In this document: one piece after another, positions 3,249 through 25,834 of the stretch | Numbering within the stretch: position 1 is the stretch's first letter | Layout of the letters: every line of letters starts with the position of its first letter | From: a virus | Virus record (IMG/VR): IMGVR_UViG_3300006738_000010 | Span: 1-58,437 of that record | Length of the DNA stretch: 58,437 bases | Direction: 5' to 3' (one strand) | Position numbers and translations under genes: made by a program | Notes under the pieces: model-generated | Databases searched by the model: none | Told to the model about the DNA's origin: nothing | The model's input: only the letters and a program-made list of their open reading frames with translations

Positions 3249-4723
3249 GTAATGAGCAGATGGACGCCTTCATCCTGAATATGGATAGAGAGATGTGCAA
3301 GAAGTCATTCAAGTATTTCTTCGTAGATATCCTTGGTTTCCTATACAATCACCATCATGACGATTGGCGGAAGGGATTAGAAGAGTCACAATACTACTGC
3401 GTGAAAGCATCTCGTGACCACGGTAAATCCGTCTTCTTCATGTCGTATGCGCTATGGCTTGCTGCATTCAATCCCGGCAAACACGTTATGGTTTTCTCTC
3501 ACTCACTTGAGCAGACGCTTGAGCATATGAGATTCATTCGCAATCTGATAGAGGGAAATGACATCCTTAGACATTTGAAGCCAGAGGGCAAGCCTTGGGC
3601 GAAATCTTACTTCGAGTTTTCTAATGGTAGCCGTATGATGGCAAAGTCAGTTGGTGGAGCAACTCGTGGATTCCACCCCGATATTGTCGTTTGTGACGAT
3701 ATTCTCTGGGGAACGACTGCTTCTGAATTGGCTAAGACGGCCGATTGGTTCTACGGCGTTCTCCTTCCGGTTCTCCATCACACGAGTAAATTGATGATGG
3801 TTGGCACGCCATTTAGTTACAATGACTTGTATGCGGAATTAGAGCAGAAGGAGACATTTAGAGTAGAGACTTATCCTGCAATTGATGCTGAAGGAATTGC
3901 TCTTTGGCCTGAGCGTTGGGATTTAGAAGCCTTAGATTTGAGGCGCATGTCGATGCCAGCAATTCAGTTTACGCGAGAATATCTCTGTGAGCCTATTCAC
4001 GATGTAGCAAGTATGTTCCCGATGCCTTTGTTGGAGCAAGCAAGAGACACTGATTTGGTTCTGATAGACAGGGCCGAAACTAATTACAACGAAGAAGGAG
4101 AGGCAGATGGTGTCTTCGGACAGCACTTCATAGGTCACGACCCTGCGATAGCATCTGATAAGAATGCTGATTTTACTGCGATGACTGTTATGCGTATCAA
4201 ACCCGATGAGGAGAAGAAGGAGATAATCCACGTCGTTCACGAAAGAGGAATGTCCTCAGTAGCACAAAAGAGGATGATGGTGATGCTCAATAGTAAGTTT
4301 CAACCTGAACTTATCGAACTTGAGGGAAATAACTTCCAAAGAATGCTTGAGCAAGAGATGAGAGAACTTAGGGCGGATATGCCTATTCGAGTATTCATGA
4401 CTACGCGCACGCGTAAGGAGAGTTTGTTCATGTCTCTCCTTCTTGCATTTGAGCAAGGACACATTAAAACTCCATATGGCGATGAGAGAAGTAAGAAATA
4501 CACTCATGCTCTTGAGCAGGAACTCAATCGTTTCGGTATGCAGAAGAGTGGTAAGTTAGAGAGCGTAGGCGTGCACGATGACTTAGCGATGAGTATAGCA
4601 CTCGCAAATTGGGCATCTAAGGAGTTTAAGGGAAGTGTAATGCTCTTGGATGATTATATGCCCGGTTTCGATAGTTGGGTAAGTGGGGATGGCAATAATA
4701 CAGGGAGTTGGATGATACCATGA
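3245..4723 (+). CDS. terL: Terminase large subunit (packaging ATPase/nuclease)
   Basis: This is the motor that pumps viral DNA into the prohead through the portal and cuts concatemers. From the ATG at 3245 the product is 492 residues. The ATPase domain shows a Walker A variant ASRDHGKS (55-62), Walker B DIVVCDD (146-152) followed by the coupling region, and motif III-like VGTPFS (186-191). The RNase H-fold nuclease has GHDPA (Asp299), acidic LIELEG (Glu358, Glu360) and HDD (445-446). These are the expected three acidic clusters, and the length is normal. The start overlaps the previous stop (ATGA). A TTG at 3239 sits better behind AAGGAG and would add two residues. No canonical small subunit is seen next to it; the LAGLIDADG-like gene at 4787 occupies the gap before the portal. 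Confidence 0.95.
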   Translation: MSNEQMDAFILNMDREMCKKSFKYFFVDILGFLYNHHHDDWRKGLEESQYYCVKASRDHGKSVFFMSYALWLAAFNPGKHVMVFSHSLEQTLEHMRFIRNLIEGNDILRHLKPEGKPWAKSYFEFSNGSRMMAKSVGGATRGFHPDIVVCDDILWGTTASELAKTADWFYGVLLPVLHHTSKLMMVGTPFSYNDLYAELEQKETFRVETYPAIDAEGIALWPERWDLEALDLRRMSMPAIQFTREYLCEPIHDVASMFPMPLLEQARDTDLVLIDRAETNYNEEGEADGVFGQHFIGHDPAIASDKNADFTAMTVMRIKPDEEKKEIIHVVHERGMSSVAQKRMMVMLNSKFQPELIELEGNNFQRMLEQEMRELRADMPIRVFMTTRTRKESLFMSLLLAFEQGHIKTPYGDERSKKYTHALEQELNRFGMQKSGKLESVGVHDDLAMSIALANWASKEFKGSVMLLDDYMPGFDSWVSGDGNNTGSWMIP

Positions 4724-4782
4724 ATAAGATAAATACGACAGAAATAGACTCAAAGAATGTAAACACTACACTTTGGACGTGA
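4720..4782 (+). CDS. Possible 20-residue peptide
   Basis: An ATG at 4720 overlaps the terminase stop (ATGA), and the frame runs 20 codons to a TGA just before the next gene. The overlap matches the coupling used throughout the window. The peptide is polar, Asn/Thr-rich and has no motif. It could equally be a short translated spacer that delivers ribosomes to the start at 4787. Confidence 0.25.
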   Translation: MNKINTTEIDSKNVNTTLWT

Positions 4783-4786
4783 GAGA

Positions 4787-5929
4787 ATGGGCATTTTTCC
4801 AGATAATGGAGACGGTTGGTTTGAAGCCAATCTTGGTTTTTCAGCATCTGAATTAGTGAAGCGTCTAAAGAAAGCCAGAAGGCACAATAAACAAGATAAG
4901 GATTTCATAGACAAAGCAATAGATGATATTAGAGCGTTGAAAATTATGGAAGTTGATGCTACATTGAAGGTGCATGATTGGAGTGAACCCTATTCTGATA
5001 CTATCAAGGAATTAGGACTTACTGACCGTAATATGAAAGCACTCAGAAAGTTTGGAGAGTCAAGGAGTATTACTCTTCAAAGGGCTTGTCGCCAATGGGA
5101 TAATGCAGATGATACACTTAAGATGCTCGAAGAATATGAAGATGTATGGGGCGATTCGGAAAAGAAGGCTTGGGTAGAAGCGATGGATGCCAAAAGAGAT
5201 GCCAGATTGATATGGAAGACTGCACTTCATCAGATAGAAAGACTAACCGATAAAGAGAAGGAAACACTTGTCAAAAGTGCTGAGATTCTACAAAGTAAAG
5301 GCCCAATGACAGGAAGGATGATTTTTGAAAACTTATCTGAAAAGAAGATTCTCCATAAGAGTATGACGTCCATGAAATTAGCAAAATTACTCTCAATGTA
5401 TGGTGAGGAGATTGATATTATTGGAGGAGCAGGAAGAGGGACTTTTGTCAAGATGGATAAGACCGGTCTCATTATCAAAGACCCATGGGCGTATGCTGCT
5501 GGATTCCTCGATGCCGATGGCTATATCACAATTACAAAGAGAGGTGAGCCTCGCGCTGGTTTCATAGCGACAGGGAATAGAGGTAAGATACATTGCGAAC
5601 AACTGCAGAAAACTTTGGATTGCGGTATACTACAGTTGGACCAAAAGGTGTATAGCGACAATCAACGCAGTCAGCATCGCCTTCAGTTCTATTCTAAAGC
5701 GGATATAGCAAAACTATTGAAAGGAGTCCTGCCATTCTTACAAATGAAAACAACTCAAGCAAAAGCGGTGCTTGCATTCATAGAAGAGAGAGATAGTCTG
5801 AAGAAAGACGAATTGAAGAAAGTAGTAAGGTATAGCAATTGGAGTGACGATACCAATAAGGCTAATGCCCTACTGGCCGAGTGGGGTATAGAGGCCGACC
5901 AAGTGAATAAGTGGGCGGAGGCGATTTGA
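4787..5929 (+). CDS. Winged-helix and LAGLIDADG-type DNA-binding protein
   Basis: This 380-residue protein has three visible parts. Residues 1-155 are charged and helical. Residues about 160-225 look like a winged helix, with helices followed by a Gly-rich hairpin. Residues 232-340 hold one clear LAGLIDADG motif, AAGFLDADGYITI (237-249), followed by the usual strand-rich fold and closing helices. Single-motif proteins of this family normally dimerise to bind and cut about 20 bp. It is not an intein: it has its own start, and no splice-junction residues flank it. It may be a homing endonuclease inserted between terL and the portal gene. Alternatively it may be a family member recruited for DNA recognition in packaging, since this is where a small terminase could sit. 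The family call is fairly sure; the role is open. Confidence 0.8.
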   Translation: MGIFPDNGDGWFEANLGFSASELVKRLKKARRHNKQDKDFIDKAIDDIRALKIMEVDATLKVHDWSEPYSDTIKELGLTDRNMKALRKFGESRSITLQRACRQWDNADDTLKMLEEYEDVWGDSEKKAWVEAMDAKRDARLIWKTALHQIERLTDKEKETLVKSAEILQSKGPMTGRMIFENLSEKKILHKSMTSMKLAKLLSMYGEEIDIIGGAGRGTFVKMDKTGLIIKDPWAYAAGFLDADGYITITKRGEPRAGFIATGNRGKIHCEQLQKTLDCGILQLDQKVYSDNQRSQHRLQFYSKADIAKLLKGVLPFLQMKTTQAKAVLAFIEERDSLKKDELKKVVRYSNWSDDTNKANALLAEWGIEADQVNKWAEAI

Positions 5930-7728
5930 TGGCAGAAGATGAAGAAACTGGAATACGTGGTTTTCTCAGGAGGGTTTCGGCTCCATTCAGAAGTCGAACT
6001 ACACCTGAACCGCAGATGCCGCTCTATACTACTGGTATACAGGAACCAGTCTTAGCGCAGGGTATTACACTACCCGCGCTATATGCGGTCACGCACGAGA
6101 ATCTCATACTGCGAACAGTCATTTCTAAGTTAGCGCAGGAGATATTCAGACGAGGCTACTATTGGGAAAAGAAGTTTCAGCACAAGTGTATGGACTGTGG
6201 TGAGGAATATAAGAATGAAGTAGAACAATGTAATCTATGTGGCGGGCAATTGAAGACGCCAGATGTAAATCAACTAATCTATCCTAAATGGCTTCTTGAG
6301 CAGCAAAATTCGATGGAACAGAACTTCATGCACATAATGGCTGAGATTGAGAAAGACCTCAATATAGTGGATGATGCATTCTTGATTTGCGTTAAGGAAT
6401 ACTTCGTAGACCCTGAGACATCAGATATGAAGTTCTATCGAGTAAAGGAAATCATCAGAGGCGACCCGATATTCATGAGAATCATCTCAGATAAGCGCGG
6501 AGTTCGTGGTGGTAGATACAAGGTATGTCCTCTCCATCGTGACCAAGTTTCCTATCCCGGACAAGACGAGAAATGCCAAGTCTGTGGAAATAACATGCAG
6601 GAAGCCCACTATGCCAATATGGCAGGAAGTGGGAAGACACAGTATTATCTGGAAGGAGAGGTTCTCCATATCAGTAAATACAATCCATCCAAGTTGTATG
6701 GTAAGAGCCCAGTTAATACCATGTGGCGACAAGCCATGACTTTGACGGCAATGGATAATTACATGTATACAGCATATCAGAAGAGAAGGAGTCCGAAAGG
6801 AATCATATCTGTTACCACTGATAATCTTGAATCAATGAAGTCATTTTGGAAGACTGTTGATGAGAAAATGGAGCGTGACCCACATTACATACCAAAAGTT
6901 GGCATAGAGAGTCAGACTGGAAGAGGTGGAGTGAATTGGGTTAAGTTCATGGACACTCTTGAGGAAATGCAGTATATTTCAGTTAGAGATGAGATGAGGA
7001 ATCGTATAGCCGCTTTCTTTGGTGTAAGTAGCATTTTCATGATTGACAGTGGTAAGAGTGGCGGTTTGAATAACGAGGGAATGCAGATTCTTGTAACTAA
7101 TCGGGCTGTAGAGTTTGGTCAGAAAGTCTACACTGACGTGCTTTTCCCTCGTATGCTCAAAGAAATGGACGTTACAGATTGGAAACTTACTCTCTATCCT
7201 AATGAGGAAGAGGATGAAATTACTCGTTTGCGACGAGACGAGATGGAAGTGAACCTCGCTCAGAGGATGATGATGCTTGGCTACAAACCAGAACTTATGG
7301 AGGAAGGCGACAGAGACATACGCTTTACTTATCGTCAAATGGACCCCCAGCAGGATGGCGCAGCGCCAATGCCGCCGGGAATGACACCACCGCAAGGAAT
7401 GCCGCCCGGCACTGGAATGATGCCTAATGGAATGATGCCGCCGGGAATGGCACAACGTGGAGGAATGCCACATGGAGGAATGCCACATGGAGGAATGTCA
7501 CCCGGTATGCCACCCGGTATGCCACTCAATCAGATAATGCCGCCATCACAACCCGGAGGAGAGGGAATGGGAATAAGAACGCCAAGAGGACCAGCCTCGC
7601 CACAAAGTCGAACATCTTTCGGTATAGGCTCCCCTGTTTCATCAGTTCAACAGAGGGGACCACAGAACTCATTAGCGCAGGATAATAGTCGTGCTCTACT
7701 AAACGCAAGACGAATAAAGGGCGCGTAA
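5929..7728 (+). CDS. Portal protein with two zinc ribbons
   Basis: The portal is the dodecameric ring at the capsid vertex through which DNA passes and to which neck proteins attach. The ATG at 5929 overlaps the previous stop (TGATG) behind GGAGG and is preferred over an in-frame start at 5911, giving 599 residues. The central and C-terminal parts are portal-like: the segment with YQKRRSPKGII, the stem-region RNRIAAFFGVSSIF and the following helices that end near LGYKPELMEEGD. Two metal sites are inserted in the N-terminal half: C87-x2-C90...C101-x2-C104 and C200-x2-H203...C216-x2-C219. The last 130 residues are a Met/Pro/Gly-rich low-complexity tail, including GGMPH repeats, probably disordered. 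The portal assignment rests on these features and on position after terL. Confidence 0.85.
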   Translation: MAEDEETGIRGFLRRVSAPFRSRTTPEPQMPLYTTGIQEPVLAQGITLPALYAVTHENLILRTVISKLAQEIFRRGYYWEKKFQHKCMDCGEEYKNEVEQCNLCGGQLKTPDVNQLIYPKWLLEQQNSMEQNFMHIMAEIEKDLNIVDDAFLICVKEYFVDPETSDMKFYRVKEIIRGDPIFMRIISDKRGVRGGRYKVCPLHRDQVSYPGQDEKCQVCGNNMQEAHYANMAGSGKTQYYLEGEVLHISKYNPSKLYGKSPVNTMWRQAMTLTAMDNYMYTAYQKRRSPKGIISVTTDNLESMKSFWKTVDEKMERDPHYIPKVGIESQTGRGGVNWVKFMDTLEEMQYISVRDEMRNRIAAFFGVSSIFMIDSGKSGGLNNEGMQILVTNRAVEFGQKVYTDVLFPRMLKEMDVTDWKLTLYPNEEEDEITRLRRDEMEVNLAQRMMMLGYKPELMEEGDRDIRFTYRQMDPQQDGAAPMPPGMTPPQGMPPGTGMMPNGMMPPGMAQRGGMPHGGMPHGGMSPGMPPGMPLNQIMPPSQPGGEGMGIRTPRGPASPQSRTSFGIGSPVSSVQQRGPQNSLAQDNSRALLNARRIKGA

Positions 7729-7759
7729 TTCAAATAGCATCGCGCATACGCAATAGGCA

Positions 7760-8110
7760 GTGAAGACCATGGACCTCATCAAAATGCACCCAATGGCGCG
7801 AAAAATGACAGCCCACAACGAAGAACTTGCGAAAGCAATAGAAGATGGTAATGCAGATGTCGCAAGACAGCACATTATGGAGATAATCAAGTATGCGAGC
7901 ACTCTTGAAGACGACCTTCTTATGGCTGTGAAGAAAGGAGAGAACGAAGTAGTAGTGCCTGATAACTCATGGCAAGTCATGAAGTTCAATCAATCTGGTG
8001 CAAACTTCGACCCATCTATGAGGGGCGACCAATTGCCCGGCACAATCATTCCAGCAAGAACAAAGCAGGCTATGAGGCCCGTACGCGGAACCTTTGGTCG
8101 AAGAGTCTGA
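7760..8110 (+). CDS. Small helical head-module protein
   Basis: The 116-residue frame starts at GTG 7760. An ATG three codons in (7769) is an equally good start, and neither has a strong ribosome-binding site. The first 60 residues are amphipathic helix (HPMARKMTAHNEELAKAIED onward) with an acidic helix near TLEDDLL. The C terminus is basic and Pro/Arg-rich. No known family is recognised. It lies between the portal and the scaffold-like genes, so a role in head assembly is plausible but inferred. Confidence 0.7.
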   Translation: MKTMDLIKMHPMARKMTAHNEELAKAIEDGNADVARQHIMEIIKYASTLEDDLLMAVKKGENEVVVPDNSWQVMKFNQSGANFDPSMRGDQLPGTIIPARTKQAMRPVRGTFGRRV

Positions 8111-8119
8111 GGCGATATA

Positions 8120-8467
8120 ATGGAAGAAGGGGACGCAGGAAAACTCATGAATACTCTCATCTCTAAGATGGAGAGTATGGATAATGAGGTTCAGACGCTA
8201 AAGGCGGAGAATCTTATTCTCAAGAGAATGATGGATAATCCTAAAGTTCTCTTACGTAAAGCAGGTTTTGTTCCTTTCAACACTCCTCTATCGGAAGACG
8301 TTGAGGTTGACGCTTTCAGAGCAGACGTGCAGACTGGCGGACTTCTCAAGGCAGAGGTAGACTCCTCTGACCCAGATAAGTTTAGCAATACTGAGATTCA
8401 CGAAATGAGTTGGGATGAGATACACGATATGGCAGACCAACATAGAGAAGTAAAGGAGATGTATTGA
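8120..8467 (+). CDS. Coiled-coil protein sharing a C-terminal motif with the scaffold
   Basis: The product has 115 residues. Residues 8-38 form a clear heptad coiled coil (MNTLISKMESMDNEVQTLKA and on). A conserved-looking middle (VLLRKAGFVPFNTP) and an acidic C-terminal part follow. About a dozen residues from the end is MSWDEIHDMAD. Nearly the same motif, MSWDEVHQLAD, ends the protease-scaffold encoded at 14712. This suggests that both bind the same partner, most simply the capsid protein. The start follows GAGGCGAT, and the stop overlaps the next ATG (TGATG). It may be a scaffold or a packaged internal protein. Confidence 0.75.
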   Translation: MEEGDAGKLMNTLISKMESMDNEVQTLKAENLILKRMMDNPKVLLRKAGFVPFNTPLSEDVEVDAFRADVQTGGLLKAEVDSSDPDKFSNTEIHEMSWDEIHDMADQHREVKEMY

Positions 8468-8790
8468 TGGTAAAACCAAGATATGAAGAAACCTCGTCTG
8501 AGGTCCAAGAATTATTGATGAAAGCAATTGCACTTGAAAAGCGTATAGATGAGGCAGAGATACAGAAATCATCTCATCATCCAGAAACTACTTTTGATAC
8601 GAGGCCGGGTGGCGTTCAATTCATGGCAGAAAGTGGAGGGCAAACTTACAATGTCTTCTATAACACAAACCAATCACTTCTTGATTCCGATGATGTCGCT
8701 AACAAGGGTGCGTCCAGTGAGAGCGTAAATCTTGATAATACTCCAATGAAGAATACCCACGACACCGTAAACAGGCTTGTCGAGGGATGA
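8467..8790 (+). CDS. Small hypothetical head-module protein
   Basis: The ATG at 8467 overlaps the previous stop (TGATG) behind AAGGAGATG and is preferred over TTG at 8464, giving 107 residues. The first 40 residues form a charged helix (SSEVQELLMKAIALEKRIDE). The rest is polar, Ser/Asn/Thr-rich and probably extended. No family is recognised. Its stop overlaps the following 44-residue zinc-binding ORF (ATGA), so the three small genes here form a coupled string between portal and the giant protein. Confidence 0.65.
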   Translation: MVKPRYEETSSEVQELLMKAIALEKRIDEAEIQKSSHHPETTFDTRPGGVQFMAESGGQTYNVFYNTNQSLLDSDDVANKGASSESVNLDNTPMKNTHDTVNRLVEG

Positions 8791-8921
8791 GCGTGACCAA
8801 AGTCGCCGTAATCAAAGGCGTCATAGACTCTATGTCGTGTAGAACATGTGGTGCTACTCCCAGCGAGGGGTGTAGGCGAAAACAAGGATTACCCATAGAA
8901 CAATGTCCGATGAATGGGTGA
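8787..8921 (+). CDS. 44-residue four-cysteine (zinc-ribbon-like) protein
   Basis: This short frame starts at an ATG overlapping the upstream stop (ATGA). It encodes 44 residues with C18-x2-C21, C29 and C40. The CRTCGAT knuckle followed by two spaced cysteines fits a minimal zinc site. The start context and tight coupling argue that it is real despite its size. The region 8919-8944 after it carries a duplicated 8-base tgataagg element that supplies the AAGGTGATG ribosome-binding site of the next gene. Function unknown. Confidence 0.55.
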   Translation: MSVTKVAVIKGVIDSMSCRTCGATPSEGCRRKQGLPIEQCPMNG

Positions 8922-8943
8922 TAAGGTGATAAGGTGATGATGG

Positions 8944-11900
8944 ATGAAAGAAGGCCCAATAGATGTCTATCTGCGTCATCGTTCTGAATTACTGAAGGCC
9001 ATATACGACGGCACCGACCCAGAGCAAGAGGTTGGAGATTATCTCATCTCTACGATAAATCTGGAGAATCACGAAATAGAGTTTCATCCTACATCAGAAG
9101 ACGAACTCTGTCGGGGATTTAGTTCCGATTTTCTAAAAGCAGAAGAGGGCGGACGGAGTCAACCATTCGCATCATGGAGACCTGCTTTTCATATGGAAAT
9201 GGGGACACGCCATCCTTGGCGTGGACGAGTCAAGATGGCCTATGATGAGAGCGATAACGATAGATTCAATTTTCCCTTATTCACTGAGAAGAGGAAAGGG
9301 GAAACGCATTCACAGTTTATGGAGAGAAATAAGATACCTATCAGTATGAAGCATGGCCTTTGGCCGGAAGTTCTACCATCGAGAACGAGACCTGTAAGGG
9401 AGAAAATTGTAGGTAAGGATGGGATAGAGCGTCTGGTCGAGACGGGAGTCGAAACCGAACCAATAGAGAATTATACTGACGTCAGTCCTTTTGATAAAAA
9501 AGTGCATCCATTAAGGAGGATTCGTGCTGATACTGGTAAACCAGAATGGGAACAGATGCTTAGAGAGTTCTATCTGGGTAAGAATAAATGGGCTGAGAAG
9601 GTAGCAGATGCGGAAAAGAAGCATAGAGCGCATTGGAAGAAAGATGCAATTGGAGACGGCTCTGAGGAATATGATACGCAGACTATCTATGATTCTATAC
9701 CCGATGGAAAGTTCTCTTTCTTAGGTGGAGATGATGGGCACAAAAGTGAAGTCACTAACCATCTTCATGGATTGCGATTGAGAGACTTCGAGAGATGGAA
9801 GAATGGAACTGGCGATTGGGGAGGTTTCAATGAAGAAGATGGTGAGAAGCACAAAGATAGAGTCAAGGCGCTGGACAAAGAAGGCAAGGACTTGGAAGAG
9901 GAGCATTTCAATGATAGGATGGAGAAATTACTCAGTAACGATGTTACTCCTATTACTTACAAACCAGAAGACCCATACGGAGAATGGGATAAGAAGGGAA
10001 TAGAATCATTAGCAGATATGACCAAAGTCCATGCTCATGGAATGGGGCATTCGACTTTGATGAGAGGATTGGAGTTCCTTTCTCCAGAAGATAGGACTAT
10101 TGTGATGGAGCATATAGCGACACATGGCACAGATGACCCAGACCTAAGACATCAATATATTGAACTTGATGATGGGCATCGTCTTTTTATGGCTCGTATA
10201 AAGCAGACAAAGAAGCAGAGGCAAGAAGGAGAGTTGCATTGGTTTCAACGTGCCAGAATGCATTCGGGCGCTAATGTTCCAGAGCATAAGGAAAAGCCAC
10301 ACGATTCATTCATACATGGAGACGAAGGCATGATTGCTGGCACTTTGGCTAATACGCTCGTCAAAGACGACGGCATCCATGAGGGCGAGCCGCACCAGTA
10401 TGCGAGGCACGCATCTGGGGAGATAGATATGGATAAGGAGCCGAAGAAGATGTATGATAAGACCGCATTAGAGCATGTGATGGAAAAACTCGAAGAGGCC
10501 TATGAGGGAGATGGCCTCTTAGAGTATGGTGAGGATAGGGTAGATGCGGGTGGCTTACCTATCGGTAAGGCCAAGAATCTTCCGAAGTTTAGCGAGAGAG
10601 ATATAGAAGATATTCAAAGTGCTCTATCAGAAGGGAAGGATGCAAAGGAGGCATTGAGCGAAAAACTCACAAATAATAGTCACATTGCTTTGGGAACAGA
10701 AGGATTTCTGGATTTAATGGGTTGGAATCGTGATTTAACTGAGAGGCACAAGAGTCACCCTCTCTTCAGTGGGAGAGGGAGTAAGGCTCTGATTAACAAG
10801 TCTATCATGAGAGGCATTCTCAAAAATCTAAAGCGCGTATCTGGTCTTTCTCTTAGTGCAAAACAGATAAGGTCAGCAATGGGAGCGCATATCGTTAATC
10901 ATGGACCGAAGCCTGAAGACATTTCTGATGAGGAGCGAGAACATTACTTAGATGTTGAAGGAAGGCTCAAGGGATTAGGATTCCCACAAGGCGGGCGCAT
11001 ATTTGCACATAGAGGAGGGCTTGGAAGAGAACTTTCAACTTATGTGGAGATGATGCATGATTTTCATGCTGACGATATTGATTGGGATAAGGGAGAGGGA
11101 ATATCGTCAGAGTTAGGGGACAGAGAACAAGAGGGGTCTGGAAAAATCATTCCTAATAGCAATACGTTGGGACTCTGGGCACGTGCCCATCCTCATTTCC
11201 TTCCTTATGGACAAAACTACCACGACACTGCGCATGGTATTATGGCTACGACTGATACAAATACTCACGCATTACACAGAATAGGAACTGCAAGACACCC
11301 CGGAAGAAATATCAAGACGAACAGTTCACAATATCTTTCGACTCGCAGTCCTTACTTTATGGCCCGATTTATGCGTGAAAACCCGTCTCCACAGAACTTT
11401 GTAATGGAAACGAAGAATCTAACTACGAGAAGTATCATGGCTCATCATTTCAATTCTCATAATTTCGCTACTATGACCAATACAGCAAAAGAATGGAAGG
11501 AACCTCCTTCAAAATACAAGAAAGATACGGATGGTGAACTCGTGCTTGACAAAGATGGCGAGCCGATATTATCAAACCGTAAGGGATGGACCGATGAAGA
11601 GTTAGCACGAAGAGTGCAGCCGGGAGATTATGGAATAAGAAGAGTAGCAGCATTAGCACGTCTACAAGCCCACGCCAATGGCAGGCGTAACGCCTTTGGC
11701 AATCCCGGTGAAAGAATGCATATTACCTTGAAAGATTTAGAGGATAACCCAAGTTTTCGAGCATCTCCCGATATGGACTCAATGGATTACTTAGCGGAGA
11801 TGCCTCACTTCAAAGGCTCAAATATCCAAGATAGGCTCGACGCTGGTTTATTGGATGAGTTGGAAGACTTCAATGTCATACTTGATGAGATGAAGTCGAG

Positions 11901-14676
11901 GAACCCTCCAGAAGAATTGCCTGCAGACCATCCAATAATGAGACGATACGAGAATCTCATGGCGAAGTTCAACAAGGTATACGGGGATGAGATAATACGA
12001 ACCAGTAGGGGTGCATACGGTGGGAGGCAAAAGCAAACATCATACGGTTGGCGTGATAAGGACGAGGATGTTATGCGAGGCGACAAAAAGGCTGTTACTA
12101 ATTATGCTCGTGATGTCTTAATTCCAGAAGTTCTCAAAGCCCATCCTTCTGCATATCATCCGTCTAATCCTAAAGCGCTTGCTAATGTCGCCGCCACACT
12201 ACAAGGCGCTATGAGGAGTATTTACAAGAAAGGGGGAGGAGGTCTTACTACTTCTGCTGCTTGGATTAGGCCTGCTGGCTCAAAAGCCGCATTATATGCT
12301 CCAGAATACAAGAAAGATGCGGATGGTGAACTCATACTTGACAAAGATGGTGAGCCGATATTAACAAAGAGGATTTCATCTGATGAGCAATATAGATTGG
12401 CTTCTTTGATGCAGCAAGGTGAAGTCGGAAGCAAGATAATTGGGGATGAGTCAATACATATGATTCTGAAGAAACTCGGTTTGCCAGACGATACTCCCCA
12501 TCGCAAACATGTAAAGCACATGATGAAGACACACGGTGGTGATTTTACTGCTGCTACTCTCGGCCAATTAGCAACAGCAGGTATAGATTGGCAGTCGAAT
12601 TATGAGAAGGATGAGAGGGGAAAGTATGTTCTCGATAAGGATGGGAGGAAAATCCCAGCAGCATCTCCATTTAAGAGTTTGAAAGGGGAAGATATCCATA
12701 CATTTTTAGACGATAAAATGAAAGAACTTCAGGAGAGTTATCCAACTTCGGCAGCAACTGGACGTGAGAGCACAGAATACCAAGTAACACAACGCGCCTT
12801 ACGAAGTGCATGGGACAAAACCCATAAGGGCCATATTGCATTGAGAGGAATTAGAAATGTTGTGAATCTTCAACCTGACTTATTGAAGGGCTATGGATTA
12901 ACCTTCCAATCTTCTCCTAACTACAGTAGGAAGAATCCAATGATTGCTCAACAGAAAGTTTCAGGCGAGCCTTTGGGGGATAGGGAATTGTTGTTCTCCC
13001 ACAGAGATAAGACTGGCGATAGGAGAGATTTAACTGATATGAAGAATATAGCAAACAGCATTCTCGTATTCGATGAAGGGGCATTGCAGGGAGAAACACT
13101 TCAAGCCAAGTTCGACCCTTTCGAGGGAAAGAAAGCGGTAGGATGGTATGACGATGTTCCAATCGAATCACATGATAGCGGAGAAGGGGCTATTCCTCAT
13201 GACCACTACATCAGTGGAGGTATGGATGATGGTTATCTCGTCACACCAGAAATAGGAATTGAACACGATGAAGACGACAACATCGTCGTAGGCACTAATG
13301 CTACTGAGGGCTATTATCACACCGTACCATTCCAAACGTTACAGATGATGTTTCCACACTATAACAATGAGCATATACAAACTTTGATTGATAGCCACCC
13401 AGTTGAAGAAACGACCTTATCTAATCAACAAACTCCATCCAGTGATACGGGATATCCACCATCAGCGGATTTTCCATCTGTTAGATACAGTGAACCAATG
13501 CATATTTCCAATCTGTTGTTGAAGGACAAAGCAGAGTTACCGAAGCAAGTTCCGCTCATTGACCCCCTTCATAGGATATTCGACATTGAAGATTTGAAGC
13601 AATTGAGAGGATTCACTGGTGAATGGGTCGTCTCAATTCACAAGGATGGAAAAAGATGCAAAGTGCAATGCAAGAAGAATCGTGTGACCGTATTCGACGA
13701 TAGTGGCAATAAACAATCAATGAGTGAGAAAATGAGGAATGCTTTCAAACAAATCGGAAAGAAGGATTACGTAATAGATGGCGTAATGCAAGACGGAGAG
13801 TTCCACGTTAATGATATTCTACTCTATGATGACGATGTCGTATACGACCTCTCTACGCGTGAGCGCATTAAAGTGTTAAGGGGACAGTTCGATAGTTACG
13901 ACCCTGTTTACATACCCAGCCCGTCTGATATTAGAATTACAGATGAAGTTGGTTTGGAGAATGCAGTGAAGGAGTTGAGTAAGGAGTCTGACAAGATACT
14001 CTTGAGAGATGCAAAGTCCACATACATGAAGGGAGAAGAAAAGCACCCTAAGTGGGTTCTATTGGCAAAATCGGACATAGAGTTCCACATACCTTTCTCT
14101 ATGGAGATTGATGATAGTCACTTCATTATACATCTTCCAGAGGACTTAGTGAAATACGAGATAGTAGATGGGGAGGCAATCGAGCCAATAGCAGCAATAG
14201 GTAGTCTTACTGATTCAGATTACTCTCTACGCCTCGCTAAGAGTCTTGAGCCTTATTGGAAAATAGCATTAAGTGAGATGTTAAAGGAAGAAACCGAGAT
14301 AGAGCCTGAGATAGATGAGGAGAGGATAGAGGAAGAGAGTGCTGGCATACTCAAACCAAAGAAAGATAAGAATCTGATAATGAAGCCAAACGATGTTTAC
14401 AAGACGCTCGTTCTCATAGAACGCGCAATAGATGCAATGGAGAAGGGATTCAGCAATTTGGCTGGAAGAGGTTTTGGATATGATGTGGGCGATGGAACCG
14501 AGAGTCCACGCGGCCCTACGAAGTTGGATAGTGAGGAGTCTTTACCGGATTGGGACATGAGGAAACGGCCTACAGAGGATATGGAGAAGCCAGAGGACTA
14601 TCCCGGTAGACGAAGGAAAGCGAAGAAAAATGCCGAGCAGTCCAACGAATTGGGAGAAAGAAGCCTTGAGGGATAG
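8944..14676 (+). CDS. Giant (1910-aa) head-module protein with degenerate ligase-like domain
   Basis: One uninterrupted frame behind AAGGTGATG. Residues 1-1500 match no family I recognise. They are charged and rich in His, Asp, Glu and Lys. Three copies of a YxKDxxGxxxLDKDG segment lie at 858-876, 1122-1140 and (weaker) 1220-1238. Residues about 1540-1715 follow the order of covalent nucleotidyltransferase (ATP-dependent DNA ligase) motifs: I-like HKDGKR 1566-1571, III-like VIDGV 1610-1614, IV-like KILLRDAKSTY from 1684, V-like WVLLAK 1704-1709. The catalytic KxDG lysine position is His1566 and the motif III glutamate is Val1614, so activity is doubtful. The last 170 residues are acidic, then basic and disordered. 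Its place between portal and protease suggests a virion or internal head component, but this is inference. The ligase-fold call is moderate. Confidence 0.8.
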   Translation: MKEGPIDVYLRHRSELLKAIYDGTDPEQEVGDYLISTINLENHEIEFHPTSEDELCRGFSSDFLKAEEGGRSQPFASWRPAFHMEMGTRHPWRGRVKMAYDESDNDRFNFPLFTEKRKGETHSQFMERNKIPISMKHGLWPEVLPSRTRPVREKIVGKDGIERLVETGVETEPIENYTDVSPFDKKVHPLRRIRADTGKPEWEQMLREFYLGKNKWAEKVADAEKKHRAHWKKDAIGDGSEEYDTQTIYDSIPDGKFSFLGGDDGHKSEVTNHLHGLRLRDFERWKNGTGDWGGFNEEDGEKHKDRVKALDKEGKDLEEEHFNDRMEKLLSNDVTPITYKPEDPYGEWDKKGIESLADMTKVHAHGMGHSTLMRGLEFLSPEDRTIVMEHIATHGTDDPDLRHQYIELDDGHRLFMARIKQTKKQRQEGELHWFQRARMHSGANVPEHKEKPHDSFIHGDEGMIAGTLANTLVKDDGIHEGEPHQYARHASGEIDMDKEPKKMYDKTALEHVMEKLEEAYEGDGLLEYGEDRVDAGGLPIGKAKNLPKFSERDIEDIQSALSEGKDAKEALSEKLTNNSHIALGTEGFLDLMGWNRDLTERHKSHPLFSGRGSKALINKSIMRGILKNLKRVSGLSLSAKQIRSAMGAHIVNHGPKPEDISDEEREHYLDVEGRLKGLGFPQGGRIFAHRGGLGRELSTYVEMMHDFHADDIDWDKGEGISSELGDREQEGSGKIIPNSNTLGLWARAHPHFLPYGQNYHDTAHGIMATTDTNTHALHRIGTARHPGRNIKTNSSQYLSTRSPYFMARFMRENPSPQNFVMETKNLTTRSIMAHHFNSHNFATMTNTAKEWKEPPSKYKKDTDGELVLDKDGEPILSNRKGWTDEELARRVQPGDYGIRRVAALARLQAHANGRRNAFGNPGERMHITLKDLEDNPSFRASPDMDSMDYLAEMPHFKGSNIQDRLDAGLLDELEDFNVILDEMKSRNPPEELPADHPIMRRYENLMAKFNKVYGDEIIRTSRGAYGGRQKQTSYGWRDKDEDVMRGDKKAVTNYARDVLIPEVLKAHPSAYHPSNPKALANVAATLQGAMRSIYKKGGGGLTTSAAWIRPAGSKAALYAPEYKKDADGELILDKDGEPILTKRISSDEQYRLASLMQQGEVGSKIIGDESIHMILKKLGLPDDTPHRKHVKHMMKTHGGDFTAATLGQLATAGIDWQSNYEKDERGKYVLDKDGRKIPAASPFKSLKGEDIHTFLDDKMKELQESYPTSAATGRESTEYQVTQRALRSAWDKTHKGHIALRGIRNVVNLQPDLLKGYGLTFQSSPNYSRKNPMIAQQKVSGEPLGDRELLFSHRDKTGDRRDLTDMKNIANSILVFDEGALQGETLQAKFDPFEGKKAVGWYDDVPIESHDSGEGAIPHDHYISGGMDDGYLVTPEIGIEHDEDDNIVVGTNATEGYYHTVPFQTLQMMFPHYNNEHIQTLIDSHPVEETTLSNQQTPSSDTGYPPSADFPSVRYSEPMHISNLLLKDKAELPKQVPLIDPLHRIFDIEDLKQLRGFTGEWVVSIHKDGKRCKVQCKKNRVTVFDDSGNKQSMSEKMRNAFKQIGKKDYVIDGVMQDGEFHVNDILLYDDDVVYDLSTRERIKVLRGQFDSYDPVYIPSPSDIRITDEVGLENAVKELSKESDKILLRDAKSTYMKGEEKHPKWVLLAKSDIEFHIPFSMEIDDSHFIIHLPEDLVKYEIVDGEAIEPIAAIGSLTDSDYSLRLAKSLEPYWKIALSEMLKEETEIEPEIDEERIEEESAGILKPKKDKNLIMKPNDVYKTLVLIERAIDAMEKGFSNLAGRGFGYDVGDGTESPRGPTKLDSEESLPDWDMRKRPTEDMEKPEDYPGRRRKAKKNAEQSNELGERSLEG
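11515..11571 (+). repeat. Intragenic repeat, copy A
   Basis: This 57-base segment within the 1910-aa gene encodes YKKDTDGELVLDKDGEPIL (residues 858-876). It matches 12307-12363 at 53 of 57 bases with no gaps. The offset is 792 bases, exactly 264 codons. Confidence 0.8.
12307..12363 (+). repeat. Intragenic repeat, copy B
   Basis: Second copy (residues 1122-1140, YKKDADGELILDKDGEPIL) of the segment at 11515-11571. A weaker third, protein-level copy begins at 12601. Flanking sequence does not match, so this is a short module rather than a long duplication. Confidence 0.8.
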
Positions 14677-14711: not shown

Positions 14712-16091
14712 ATGATTAGTGTGCTCGGTAGTAAACAACTGTTCAGACATGACGATGAGTCAATCGCCATCCTCAAGGGTGGTAACGACCTCATTGTCGC
14801 TGGCTACGCAAGCGTGGAAGTTGTAGACAAGCAAGGCGACGTAATAACAAAGGAGGCATTAAAGGACGCATTTCGTAAGTTCATGGAAAACCCATCTTAC
14901 AGAAACGTTCAATTAGCGCACTCCAATATACAAGTAGGCGACGTAGTACCAAGTTACACAGATAATGAAGGGAGGTTGTGGAAAAGCGAAGTCGATGATG
15001 TCGGGATGTTTGTAGTAGTACAACTCCGTAACGACATCGAGAAGGCCAAGGAAGTCTCAGCAGAGATTAGAAAAGGCGTTCTCAGAGGATTCAGTATCGG
15101 TGGTCAAGCGTTCAAAAGGGTTAGAAAATCAGACCCAAAAAGAGGCGACTACCAAGAAATAAGCAAACTGGAACTTCATGAAATAACGATTTGTGAAAAA
15201 GGCATCAACCCCGAAGCAACATTCAGCATTCTAAAAGAAGATACGGAAGTGAACAATATGACAACAGAAAACGACGAAAACGATATGACAAAGCAACTGG
15301 GCGACGTTCTAACGCGCTTGGAATCACGTTTGGACGGTATGGAAAAGGGCGAGAAGCCTGCTTTCCTTGAAGACAAGAAGGACGATGACGACAAGAAGGA
15401 CGACAAGAAGAAAGAGGCGGCGGAGATAACTGAGGAGCCAGTGGAGAAATCCAATGAGTTCTCAGATGTCATTACATCCGATTACTTGAATTGGATGGAA
15501 GACACTCTGAAGAGTGGCGGTGTGGACACAGGAGCCGCACGCGCACACTTTGATGGTCTGGAAAAGGCTAACCTCGGTTCCACTCCAGAAGAGATGGCCT
15601 CTAACGACCTCCAGCGAACTGGACAGGTTAAGGGACGCGTGCAGGAAGGTGGCAAGCCTTCAACTAACGCACTCGGTAAGACTACTGGTAGTGGCAAGGT
15701 TGCGAAGTCTGACTTCATCGACCCTCGTTCACTAACGGACTCAGACATTGAGGCCGCTTACGAAGTTTACAAGGCTGCAGCCCTTGAGAACGAACTACGT
15801 GGAAGCCTCGAAGAGCAGTTCTCTACACGCTACACGCACGAGAGGCAGTCCGAGATTGCCAAGGCAGAGGCAGCAGCATTCGATGCACGCAGCCCACTTG
15901 AGGCTATTCAGAAGTCCATCGAGGCACTTGGAGAGCGCATTGACGGACTTACTACATCAGCAGAAGCAGGAGAAGATTTCAAGAAGTCCGAGAGCGCCAC
16001 TGGAATAGTGGTTCCTTCGACTGAGGATTTGGCACTAATGTCTTGGGACGAGGTTCATCAACTGGCCGATAAGACATTGAGCCCGGAGTGA
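14712..16091 (+). CDS. Prohead protease fused to scaffold domain
   Basis: Residues 1-175 fit the XkdF/S78-type prohead protease fold: GYASVEVVDKQGDVI near 31-45, catalytic-type His70 in QLAHSN, Ser128 in LRGFSIGG, and the family hallmark LHEITICEKGINPEATF at 155-171. This enzyme cleaves scaffold and capsid precursors during head maturation. Residues 176-459 are acidic and Lys-rich, then helical and Ala/Glu-rich, as in scaffold proteins, and end with the motif MSWDEVHQLAD. Protease and scaffold therefore appear to be one polypeptide. The gene directly precedes the capsid gene, as expected. The start at 14712 is the first in-frame ATG and follows GTGAG. The MSWDE motif is shared with the coiled-coil protein at 8120. 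Confidence 0.88.
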   Translation: MISVLGSKQLFRHDDESIAILKGGNDLIVAGYASVEVVDKQGDVITKEALKDAFRKFMENPSYRNVQLAHSNIQVGDVVPSYTDNEGRLWKSEVDDVGMFVVVQLRNDIEKAKEVSAEIRKGVLRGFSIGGQAFKRVRKSDPKRGDYQEISKLELHEITICEKGINPEATFSILKEDTEVNNMTTENDENDMTKQLGDVLTRLESRLDGMEKGEKPAFLEDKKDDDDKKDDKKKEAAEITEEPVEKSNEFSDVITSDYLNWMEDTLKSGGVDTGAARAHFDGLEKANLGSTPEEMASNDLQRTGQVKGRVQEGGKPSTNALGKTTGSGKVAKSDFIDPRSLTDSDIEAAYEVYKAAALENELRGSLEEQFSTRYTHERQSEIAKAEAAAFDARSPLEAIQKSIEALGERIDGLTTSAEAGEDFKKSESATGIVVPSTEDLALMSWDEVHQLADKTLSPE

Positions 16092-16109: not shown

Positions 16110-16130
16110 AGGAGATGAAGAAAAATGGCA
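16110..16130 (+). promoter_or_regulatory. Strong translation leader of the capsid gene
   Basis: The leader aggagatgaagaaaaatggc, covering AGGAG and the start codon at 16125, recurs exactly at 17315 before the next gene. Two of the most abundant expected virion proteins share this initiation region. Confidence 0.7.
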
Positions 16131-17291
16131 CGAAACTACGTACGAACAATAACTGACATGGAGCGCTATTACTATGGCGCAGGGAACGCAATGGGGTATT
16201 CTTACTCCGGTAGTGAACTACTCAAGGCAGACAGCCCAATGCTGTCTACCACTGGTGGAACTTACCAAGCAATTTATGGACGCAAAGTCTGGTCGCAACT
16301 GAACCAAGAGTTCAACGCTTTCAGTATTCTACCCAAGAAGCCTTGGGACCGAAGTGGATGGCGCGTAATCACTGGTCGCCCCAATTCGGGCACTCTACAC
16401 GGTGGAGTTGCAGAGAACGCAACACTACCTGAGACAGTCAAGCCGACTTTCCAGCACGTTGCTGCAAAGCCTAAGACTATCGCACACACCTTTGATATGT
16501 CCGAGACAGCGATTTTCCTCGCTGACAAGGATGATGGCCTCGGAGATATCCGCTCGGTCATGAAGGAAGAAATGGGCAAACATCACGCTGAGATGGTGAA
16601 CAAGATGCTTTGTACCGATGTCGACACACCTGCTGCTAACAACTTCGAGTCCTTGGACCGAGTTACAGCAGCATACAGCAACAACGCAACTACCACAACT
16701 GGTCTGGTTAATGGTCACGACAATCTAAGCGCTGACTCTGACCTCGACATATACAGTATCGACAGGAGTGCAAACTCATGGTCGAACGCTGAGATGAGCA
16801 ACAACGCAGTGAGCAATGTCTCAACTGACAGAGTTCTTTCTCTCGACTTGATTGACGAGATGTTCCAGAAACTCTGGGTCCGTGGTGGTAACCCCAAGGT
16901 TATGCTAACCGGATATGACACACTAATGCGCCTGCAGCAACTATTGCAGAGCCAGCAAAGGTTCATGGAAGAGAAGAGAGTCACCCCCACCTACAACGGT
17001 GTAAAGGGTGTTCCGGGAATGGAAGCCGGATTTATCGTGGCTACCTACAACGGAGTCCCAATTATCCCAACCAAGAACATGCTGACGGATTCTATCAGTC
17101 GCGTTTACTTCTTAGATACAGATTACCTGCACTTTAGCACAGCAATACCGACCCAATACTTCGAGTCGGGAATTGAGACCGGCGACCCCTTCGCCATCAA
17201 CAGGCTGGGTCAAGAAGGACTCTACCGAACAATGGGCGAGATTTGGACCACTTTCTTTGGGTCACAAGGAAGTCTGAGGGACTTGAAGTGA
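16125..17291 (+). CDS. Major capsid protein (HK97-like)
   Basis: A 388-residue protein placed directly after the protease-scaffold and behind the best ribosome-binding site in the region. The N-terminal 80 residues are mixed. TGRPNSGTLHGGVAENATLP and the following strand (KPTFQHVAAKPKTIAHTFDMS) look like the E-loop and P-domain strand order of HK97-type capsid proteins. The long helix near EEMGKHHAEMVNKML fits the spine helix. A later part (DLIDEMFQKLWVRGGNPKVMLTGYDTLMRLQQLL) fits the A-domain. Length and position are typical. No N-terminal scaffold segment is evident, which agrees with a separate scaffold on the protease. The call rests on fold-level pattern and gene order. Confidence 0.85.
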   Translation: MARNYVRTITDMERYYYGAGNAMGYSYSGSELLKADSPMLSTTGGTYQAIYGRKVWSQLNQEFNAFSILPKKPWDRSGWRVITGRPNSGTLHGGVAENATLPETVKPTFQHVAAKPKTIAHTFDMSETAIFLADKDDGLGDIRSVMKEEMGKHHAEMVNKMLCTDVDTPAANNFESLDRVTAAYSNNATTTTGLVNGHDNLSADSDLDIYSIDRSANSWSNAEMSNNAVSNVSTDRVLSLDLIDEMFQKLWVRGGNPKVMLTGYDTLMRLQQLLQSQQRFMEEKRVTPTYNGVKGVPGMEAGFIVATYNGVPIIPTKNMLTDSISRVYFLDTDYLHFSTAIPTQYFESGIETGDPFAINRLGQEGLYRTMGEIWTTFFGSQGSLRDLK

Positions 17292-18711: not shown

Positions 18712-19011
18712 ATGTCCAAGTTCGAGTTACAAACACTTGATATTGACGACATCAGCAGAGCAGCCAAGCAAAATGTTCGTGCAGACATTAAATACGACAA
18801 CCAGAAAATCAATACCGATGCTCCGCTAAAGGGCATCACTAAGAAGCAGAGGGCGAGAACCTCTGATATCGCAGACATACTCGATATTGGTGCTGGCACA
18901 CGCTGTGCTCACTGTGGTATGCTTCACTTTCTATGGAGGGCTACTTGTGGCGCTTGCGAAAGGCCTATGAAATATAACCTCGGAAGCCGTAATGAGGAGG
19001 CGAGGTTATGA
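18712..19011 (+). CDS. Zinc-ribbon protein
   Basis: From the ATG at 18712 (a TTG at 18706 is possible) the product has 99 residues. The N-terminal 55 residues are charged and helical. C65-x2-C68 and C79-x2-C82 form a zinc ribbon (RCAHCGM...TCGACE). The last residues, RNEEARL, are repeated exactly at the end of the next gene. The gene junction that follows is the left copy of a 35-base direct repeat. It could be a nucleic-acid-binding or assembly adaptor; no specific family is recognised. Confidence 0.65.
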   Translation: MSKFELQTLDIDDISRAAKQNVRADIKYDNQKINTDAPLKGITKKQRARTSDIADILDIGAGTRCAHCGMLHFLWRATCGACERPMKYNLGSRNEEARL

Positions 19012-19022
19012 ATGAGTTTGAC
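18988..19022 (+). repeat. 35-bp junction direct repeat, left copy
   Basis: Covers the last codons of the zinc-ribbon gene, its stop, an internal GGAGG ribosome-binding site and the first codons (MNEFD) of the next gene. It matches 19671-19705 at 34 of 35 bases (t versus c in the tyrosine/leucine-region codon before the ATG). Confidence 0.9.
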
Positions 19023-19694
19023 TTAGCATGGACCATCTTGAAGGGACTCCCCGAACAACAGATGTTTATAGAAGATTCAACACCTCCTAAAATGATGAAC
19101 CAAAATAGGAGAATTAGTAGAATGGGAACAGTCAATCCTGCAATTGAGGGTATGTTATCAAGAGAGTGGTCTAATCATCCAGATTGGGGTGATAAACGTC
19201 CTAATTTAAGAATTAATTCAGAGGCAGCCCCAAATTACAAAGGGGATAGTTTATTGGATTGGACTCATTCCATAATTGATGGTTCTCAAGGACTACATGA
19301 AAAATGGTATCCGGGTAAAAAACGAGGAGCGTGGGGAACTGAGGGAGAAGATGTAGCGTATGACGATACTCCAAGACGCAACTCAACTCAAGATATTATT
19401 AACCAATATGACCCGAAAAAGCATGGAAACGATATTGACCAGTATATGGCTGAGAATGACCCATCTACACGAAGAAAACTGGAAGAAGAGGAAGAAACAA
19501 GAAAAAGAGGTGAACAAGAAACTCAAGATAATTTCAAAAATCTTCTTCAAGAATATGAACCGGAGCAATTTTTGGACCATCCTGACGGCTTAACTCCTAT
19601 TCAAAGACAAAGAAGTAGATTAGAAGACATGGCTCGTGAGTTAGCAATGGCTCGCGGTATGCCTGACCCTCGTAATGAGGAGGCGAGGCTATGA
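19008..19694 (+). CDS. Hypothetical protein in a repeat-bounded cassette
   Basis: A 228-residue protein starting MNEFDLAWTILKGLPE. The first 10 residues resemble the starts of the next two frames. The body is polar and charged, with many Asn, Asp, Arg and Pro and a strongly charged helix near 155-185 (RRKLEEEEETRKRGEQETQD). It ends in RNEEARL, identical to the end of the upstream protein. The coding sequence is richer in A and T than its neighbours. With 35-base repeats at both ends, the gene looks inserted into, or duplicated at, a gene junction. Function unknown. Confidence 0.65.
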   Translation: MNEFDLAWTILKGLPEQQMFIEDSTPPKMMNQNRRISRMGTVNPAIEGMLSREWSNHPDWGDKRPNLRINSEAAPNYKGDSLLDWTHSIIDGSQGLHEKWYPGKKRGAWGTEGEDVAYDDTPRRNSTQDIINQYDPKKHGNDIDQYMAENDPSTRRKLEEEEETRKRGEQETQDNFKNLLQEYEPEQFLDHPDGLTPIQRQRSRLEDMARELAMARGMPDPRNEEARL

Positions 19695-19705
19695 ATGAGT
19701 TTGAC
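19671..19705 (+). repeat. 35-bp junction direct repeat, right copy
   Basis: Right copy of the repeat at 18988-19022, 683 bases downstream. It again spans RNEEARL codons, the stop, GGAGG and the MNEFD start of the following gene. Confidence 0.9.
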
Positions 19706-20065
19706 CCAATGGATATTGTATTCCAATTACTCAAGGATTCTGCTAAAGTACGAGATGGTAGTCCGTTTGCCTTTCCTAAAAGAGATGACCCAAGATATGA
19801 TTACCGGCACCGGCTCCAAGCGCCGCATACGAATCCCTCTTTGGATTATCTGAAAAGACAAGCGGCTTTGTCACAACAATCAGCACCACCTATGGACCCT
19901 TCATGGACTCCTGAAGCAATAGCGAGAATCAATGCTCAAAACGATGAAGCAAGGAGAGCACTTTCTCTGAAGGGCAAAAAAATCAATTGTGAAGATAATT
20001 CCCATGAAGAAGGTTGGTCATATTGCGGTAAGAGTGAATGTGTATCATGTGGCGGGGGTTACTGA
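19691..20065 (+). CDS. Hypothetical protein with C-terminal cysteine cluster
   Basis: A 124-residue protein beginning MNEFDPMDIVFQLLKDS, related at the N terminus to the previous gene through the repeat. The middle is Pro/Arg/Asp-rich and probably extended. The C terminus has four cysteines (INCED...SYCGKSECVSCGGG), a possible zinc site. ATGA overlaps couple it to the gene before. No family is recognised. Confidence 0.6.
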   Translation: MNEFDPMDIVFQLLKDSAKVRDGSPFAFPKRDDPRYDYRHRLQAPHTNPSLDYLKRQAALSQQSAPPMDPSWTPEAIARINAQNDEARRALSLKGKKINCEDNSHEEGWSYCGKSECVSCGGGY

Positions 20066-25559: not shown

Positions 25560-25834
25560 GAGTTCAGCAGTTCCTTAAGAAACGGAAGATAGAATCTATC
25601 GAAGATTTTGGACTGCAGGCTCAGTTGTTCGCCTATATCGTGGCGAAACATTACAGCATATCGCTTACAGAGGTATATCAGATGGATAAGGAGATTTTCA
25701 CCCAGTCCCTTGCTTGGGCGCTCGCAATCAATGATGAAGAAGACAAGGAAAGGAAAAGACAGCATATGCAAGACTCTACTGGAAATGAAACCGTGACTCT
25801 TGATTATTCATTCTTAGATGGAGAGGATATCTGA
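25541..25834 (+). CDS. Tail-assembly chaperone, -1 frame extension (T-like)
   Basis: This frame has no good start of its own. The only early candidate is a TTG at 25556 overlapping the previous stop, without a clear ribosome-binding site. It encodes 97 residues after the slip (YEREQLRVQQFLKKRKIES, then helices FGLQAQLFAYIVAKHYSISL and EIFTQSLAWALAINDEEDKE). In the lambda-type model the GT fusion binds both tape measure and tube protein and is left out of the virion. The stop overlaps the tape measure ATG (TGATG). Independent translation from the TTG is the alternative. Confidence 0.78.
   Translation, partial: YEREQLRVQQFLKKRKIESIEDFGLQAQLFAYIVAKHYSISLTEVYQMDKEIFTQSLAWALAINDEEDKERKRQHMQDSTGNETVTLDYSFLDGEDI

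Follow-up and report, generated by a model that had tools for sequence, protein, structure and literature searches.

Dead members of the ligase fold and polymorphic injected virus proteins are each already known. The m3G-cap-binding domain of snurportin-1 (PF21974) has the fold of the DNA ligases without their catalysis, and is thus a precedent for a non-catalytic member. T4 internal proteins are directed to the capsid by a targeting sequence, packed together with the genome and then injected, and one of them at least, IPI, counteracts host defence (PMC9026906, PMC9391042). Large modular proteins associated with virions or transfer have been described as polyvalent proteins (Iyer et al. 2017, PMC5512222); that study notes an inactive enzyme domain, PBECR in Mu MuF. 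Finally, the Druskaviridae encode large proteins between portal and head protease (HVTV-1 gp113-gp115, HCTV-1 gp106-gp109), annotated with gpF-like and zeta-toxin domains, and have relatives, by published profiles, in the magroviruses, which are viruses of Poseidoniales with genomes of 90-110 kb and a family B polymerase (PMC10768690, PMC12999244). Here we describe a family of giant head-module proteins, from abundant marine viruses that are probably archaeal, that combine a predicted, catalytically dead ligase-type domain with an N-terminal region that is replaced between close relatives.

The window, that is, the whole stretch of DNA that we analysed, is the 58,437-base virus record IMGVR_UViG_3300006738_000010. 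Its capsid and portal proteins are closest, among annotated proteins, to those of Druskaviridae (HVTV-1, HCTV-1 and HCTV-5; about 33% and about 28% identity, respectively). The head genes follow the order portal, three small genes, giant protein, protease and capsid protein (Table 1), which is fixed in every relative with enough flank, and the sequence-only reading was thus right to place the giant protein in a late head module. In capsid-gene loci without the ligase-type domain, the contig ends before the domain would be reached. The giant protein shares its genome position, and its related portal and capsid proteins, with the large Druskaviridae proteins, but differs from them in lacking their annotated domains. 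In profile comparison, the giant protein showed no homology to HVTV-1 gp113, gp114, gp115 or gp119, to HCTV-1 gp107 or to vir519 gene 22.

A family B DNA polymerase is encoded by all 17 of the long relative contigs searched (81-116 kb). Since these relatives carry both the polymerase and a Druskaviridae-like head module, the window virus is most likely a magrovirus. The Magrovirales traits found are an HK97-type head module akin to that of Druskaviridae, the family B DNA polymerase and a genome of about 90-110 kb; they are shared features that fit this assignment rather than a phylogeny. Between terminase and portal, an ORF at 4787-5929 has a match to an HNH endonuclease PHROG (4.7e-9) and a weak one to LAGLIDADG, and probably encodes a homing-type endonuclease; in HVTV-1, HNH genes flank the terminase on both sides.

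Table 1. Head-module features of the window, with the parts of the giant protein
Feature	Coordinates	Strand	Basis
Portal protein	5911..7728	+	PF04860, phrog_18178
Giant head-module protein, 1910 aa	8944..14676	+	ORF; preceded by three small genes after the portal gene, followed by the head protease gene
N-terminal leader, about residues 1-50	8944..9093	+	Leader profile search
Fast-evolving region, about residues 51-1500	9094..13443	+	Conservation profile, dN/dS, breakpoints in relatives L112/L119 and L212/L213
Predicted catalytically dead ligase-type nucleotidyltransferase domain, about residues 1531-1710	13534..14073	+	PF01068, PDB profile matches, AlphaFold2 and Foldseek
Motif I remnant HKDGKR, His1566 at the nucleophile Lys position	13639..13656	+	Alignment of 125 distinct relatives
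Motif III remnant DGV, Asp1612 invariant, Val1614 at the Glu position	13777..13785	+	Alignment of 125 distinct relatives
Motif IV to V segment DKILLRDAKSTYMKGEEKHPKW, best conserved stretch of the giant protein, R1688 replacing the catalytic Lys	13990..14055	+	Conservation profile, alignment of 125 distinct relatives
Four-strand beta extension and poorly ordered tail	14074..14673	+	AlphaFold2 secondary structure, conserved columns
Head maturation protease	14712..16091	+	phrog_80 and others
Major capsid protein	16125..17291	+	phrog_24667; 33% identity to HVTV-1 and HCTV-5

Identification of the ligase-type domain needs evidence from the family, since the window domain alone scores 20.2 bits against PF01068 (DNA_ligase_A_M), below the curated cut-off of 26.2. 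All 19 aligned relatives match PF01068 (best 5.4e-7), and one distant family member clears the cut-off at 27.8 bits. Family profiles compared with the PDB place DNA ligase 3 first (E about 0.002), followed by other ligases and snurportin-1; in addition, PF21974 is matched below its cut-off by 10 of the 19 members (best E 0.0014; window member 16.3 versus 27 bits). An AlphaFold2 model of residues 1511-1910 has a pLDDT mostly of 70-88 in the domain core and a poor one in the tail, and the top 50 Foldseek matches to it are all covalent nucleotidyltransferases (DNA ligases, capping enzyme) or snurportin, with E values of 1.5e-7 to 2e-5 and a probability of 1.00. The TM-scores are low, about 0.3, which we attribute to the disordered tail of the query. 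Taken together, sequence profiles and model indicate, well beyond chance, that this part of the protein is a ligase-type nucleotidyltransferase domain.

The sequence-only reading had proposed such a domain in the giant protein and had named profile search and structure prediction as the means of checking it. Both agree with the proposal: ligases lead the PDB profiles, and the predicted fold is that of nucleotidyltransferases and not an unrelated one. The span it gave, 13600-14075, is broadly right; the domain starts slightly earlier, and after it come a conserved beta extension and a tail with the conserved motif G.GID..SPRGPT..LPDWD. In a distant branch of the family (44-50% identity), about 100 extra residues follow motif V, where the OB domain of a ligase would lie. 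This region is predicted to be all beta strands, albeit with low model confidence and without a Pfam OB match, and it is missing from the window's group.

The domain shares with the ATP-dependent DNA ligases (archaeal, LIG1, LIG3 and LIG4) the fold, the order and spacing of motifs I, III, IIIa, IV and V, and the structural residues G1569, R1571, D1612, R1641, Y1694, G1697 and W1704; it differs from them in that the catalytic residues of motifs I, III, IV and V are replaced and in that it is fused to a giant head-module protein. A HMMER alignment of the family profile to the archaeal ligase 4eq5 puts the KYDG lysine on the column of H1566 and the motif IV lysine on that of R1688. Scans of marine viral contigs yielded hundreds of relatives, from which 125 distinct full-length domains were used for residue counts. 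Specifically, the nucleophilic lysine (KxDG) is kept in none of the 125, the position holding Met, Tyr, His, Phe, Leu, Trp or Gln (H1566 in the window, codon 13639-13641), and the motif III glutamate is likewise kept in none (V1614 in the window, 13783-13785). The motif IV lysine has become arginine in 123 of 125 domains, so that EGxxxK now reads DKILLR in the window, and the first motif V lysine (WxK) is Leu, Met, Ile or Val in every one; the window has L1706 and A1708 at the motif V lysine positions. With the adenine- and phosphate-contacting residues taken to be those of human LIG1, the adenine-contact glutamate before motif I is replaced by Ser, Thr or Ala across the 125 domains, and the aromatic stacking position is variable.

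The substitutions of His for the catalytic lysine and of Val for the motif III glutamate, which the sequence-only reading had picked out in the window, thus extend to a loss of both original residues throughout the family. Its statement that motifs I, III, IV and V are kept applies to their order and spacing and not to their residues, since motifs IV and V are stripped too. Judged by these sequences, the ligase domain is catalytically dead across the family. A pattern scan of cellular genomes and a tblastn search of annotated phage records found no relatives, and a search for still-active members by way of capsid-protein relatives covered the nearest 80 of at least 571. The best explanation is that catalysis was lost before the sampled family radiated, and that the ancestor was the nucleotidyltransferase domain of an ATP-dependent (archaeal/eukaryotic-type) DNA ligase.

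By a conservation profile, the giant protein is best conserved in the dead domain and in the tail that follows it. In all 22 non-overlapping pairs compared, some of them from overlapping contig sets, dN is lower in the domain than in the N-terminal part, with a median difference of 3.8-fold; in the 11 pairs with unsaturated synonymous change, median dN/dS is about 0.055 for the domain and about 0.20 for the N-terminal part. Among the positions examined, R1571, D1612, R1641, R1646, D1689, S1692, Y1694, G1697, E1698, K1703 and W1704 are invariant in all 125 domains. Some of these are structural residues of ligases, and the stretches RGFTGEW and RDAKSTYMxGE..HPKW are family-specific. The domain has a net charge of about -1 over 180 aa, and thus no net positive charge. 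Across a whole group of ocean viruses, then, a ligase fold has been fully stripped of catalysis and yet is the most constrained part of the protein that carries it, so it must do something else. The best explanation is that strong purifying selection keeps it as a non-catalytic binding module.

The giant protein is composed of a short leader, a long variable region, the dead domain and the conserved tail. In two separate lineages, the 1200-1300 residues preceding the domain have been replaced wholesale, with the same layout. Relatives L212 and L213 have 99% protein identity in the domain and 28% in the N-terminal region, and relatives L112 and L119 have 98% and 38%, respectively. Both edges are sharp: between the swapped relatives, DNA identity of about 90% gives way to about 50% in the opening 100-200 bases of the gene, and 95-98% is regained at the domain or at most about 150 bases before it. 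At the DNA level, these relatives are over 80-90% identical in the genes for portal, protease and capsid protein and in the dead domain. Such cassette replacement up to a dead domain in two relative lineages is a new observation. That the dead domain stays constant while the N-terminal part is exchanged is the most informative feature of the protein, and one that a reading of the window sequence alone could not reveal. The window's closest relatives, L003 and L004, are unswapped (92% identity in the N-terminal part), and the cassette behaviour is therefore established for the family and not for the window itself.

Pfam and PDB profile searches gave no credible match to a known domain in the N-terminal 1500 aa. 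Of 224 complete family proteins, redundant contigs included, 201 have the conserved leader of about 45-60 aa, and one clade lacks it; a search with the leader profile found it on no other protein of the window. In relative L179, the giant protein is apparently split into overlapping frames, 3739-4710 and 4683-9521, with the leader on the first, which is either a genuine split or an assembly frameshift. A short acidic motif (YKKDADGELILDKDGEPIL-like) occurs in three copies in the window's variable region, at 11512-11574, 12304-12369 and 12601-12663; the copies resemble repeated insertions.

Since no part of the protein is better conserved than the dead domain, whereas the remainder is exchanged among closely related viruses, this domain is probably a fixed docking module for changing cargo. 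In full, we propose, at what we judge an even chance, that a non-catalytic C-terminal module holds polymorphic, probably packaged cargo in the head. The giant protein would be built into the head, where the constant module would dock it on packaged DNA or on portal or capsid proteins, and the variable region would be the cargo, most likely acting on host functions after injection by analogy with the T4 internal proteins. T4 IPI-IPIII and Alt are likewise head-module products, and a short conserved leader is found here as well; they are, however, small proteins with a short N-terminal targeting sequence, whereas the protein described here, which would be packed and injected, has a dead ligase domain as a large constant C-terminal module. 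Against this proposal are the lack of a recognisable effector domain in the variable region, the unswapped N-terminal part in the window's closest relatives, the clade without a leader and a domain that is not basic, so that its charge lends no support to DNA binding. The giant protein is also set apart from the polyvalent proteins by having no recognised effector or processing domain, and a dead ligase-type domain is not described in the accessible part of the survey of those proteins (PMC5512222).

A broader form of this proposal, which we put forward only tentatively, is that the heads of tailed viruses of marine archaea are loaded with a giant protein that is polymorphic, in which a dead DNA ligase serves as a universal docking module for cargo cassettes of about 1300 residues exchanged between viruses, as an archaeal counterpart of polymorphic injected anti-host proteins. 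If true, the docking domain would be one without a known use for such a purpose in any described system. A literature search of limited coverage found no giant head protein of an archaeal virus whose constant part is a dead ligase. Furthermore, the arrangement of constant module and variable cargo allows direct tests of the host-directed cargo that uncultured archaeal viruses carry.

The sequence-only reading had suggested re-use of the domain for DNA binding inside the head or at the packaging vertex. In this vein, the domain might instead clamp DNA, holding the packaged genome or a genome end at the portal while the rest of the protein is structural. The ligase fold, the kept arginines of motifs I and IV (Arg1571 and Arg1688), the invariant Arg1641, Arg1646, Lys1703 and Trp1704 and a gene position near portal and terminase all fit a clamp, and yeast ligase IV still binds breaks when its catalysis is lost through point mutations (PMC3694833), which is a precedent for a ligase fold that works by binding. 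The net charge speaks mildly against unspecific DNA binding, and the window's group is missing the region at the OB position, and we regard a DNA clamp as rather unlikely. We also lean against a purely protein-contacting role, in which the fold would serve solely for contacts with portal, protease or capsid as the head is assembled, and the variable region would be an internal scaffold or core protein that the neighbouring protease cleaves. The two invariant family-specific stretches, which are not ligase motif residues, suggest a new surface, and the gene always lies immediately upstream of the protease; such a scaffold, however, leaves the N-terminal exchange unexplained while portal, protease and capsid protein stay over 80-90% identical.

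It is improbable that the domain is a non-covalent sensor whose old pocket still binds a nucleotide or a capped or phosphorylated end. Snurportin-1 is among the profile and fold matches and the pocket residues Arg1571, Asp1612, Arg1688 and Trp1704 are kept, but the adenine-contact glutamate, the nucleophile and the motif III and motif V catalytic residues are lost and the stacking position varies; moreover, snurportin-1 is a eukaryotic import adaptor with another ligand, and the virus setting offers no cap. An active enzyme with a relocated nucleophile is hardly credible. We reject Lys1567, which adjoins the lost nucleophile in the window and had been suggested as its substitute, since this position is lysine in only 9 of 125 domains and most commonly proline (71 of 125); motif I has no other invariant lysine, and the catalytic residues of motifs III and V are gone.

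The contig of a near-identical virus (G001) encodes a separate ATP-dependent DNA ligase in its replication half (L300 12641-13777), with intact motifs KFDGVR, DGELY and EGAMVR and an OB domain. Profile comparison with this active ligase (L127) was not significant, and we reject it as the direct parent of the dead domain. Among 13 long contigs, G001 is the only one with a PF01068 match outside the giant protein, and no NAD-dependent or RNA ligase families were found in the long contigs. According to a published survey whose annotation relied in part on Pfam at E 1e-5, almost all magrovirus groups encode a DNA ligase (PMC10160649). In 12 of the 13 long contigs the only PF01068 match, if any, is the dead domain, which is thus a trap for automatic annotation, and some published magrovirus DNA ligase calls may rest on it.

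Further along the window, the tail module contains a single ORF of 5612 aa at 28000-44838; the tape-measure PHROG match lies outside this ORF, at 25834-26820. In addition, comparison of L003 (13601-14400) with L001 (about 19000-19840 of the window) reveals, beyond the capsid gene, a second short block in which the DNA identity of near-identical viruses drops to about 55%. Further variable blocks follow in L200 and L203, which we read as another hypervariable structural gene.
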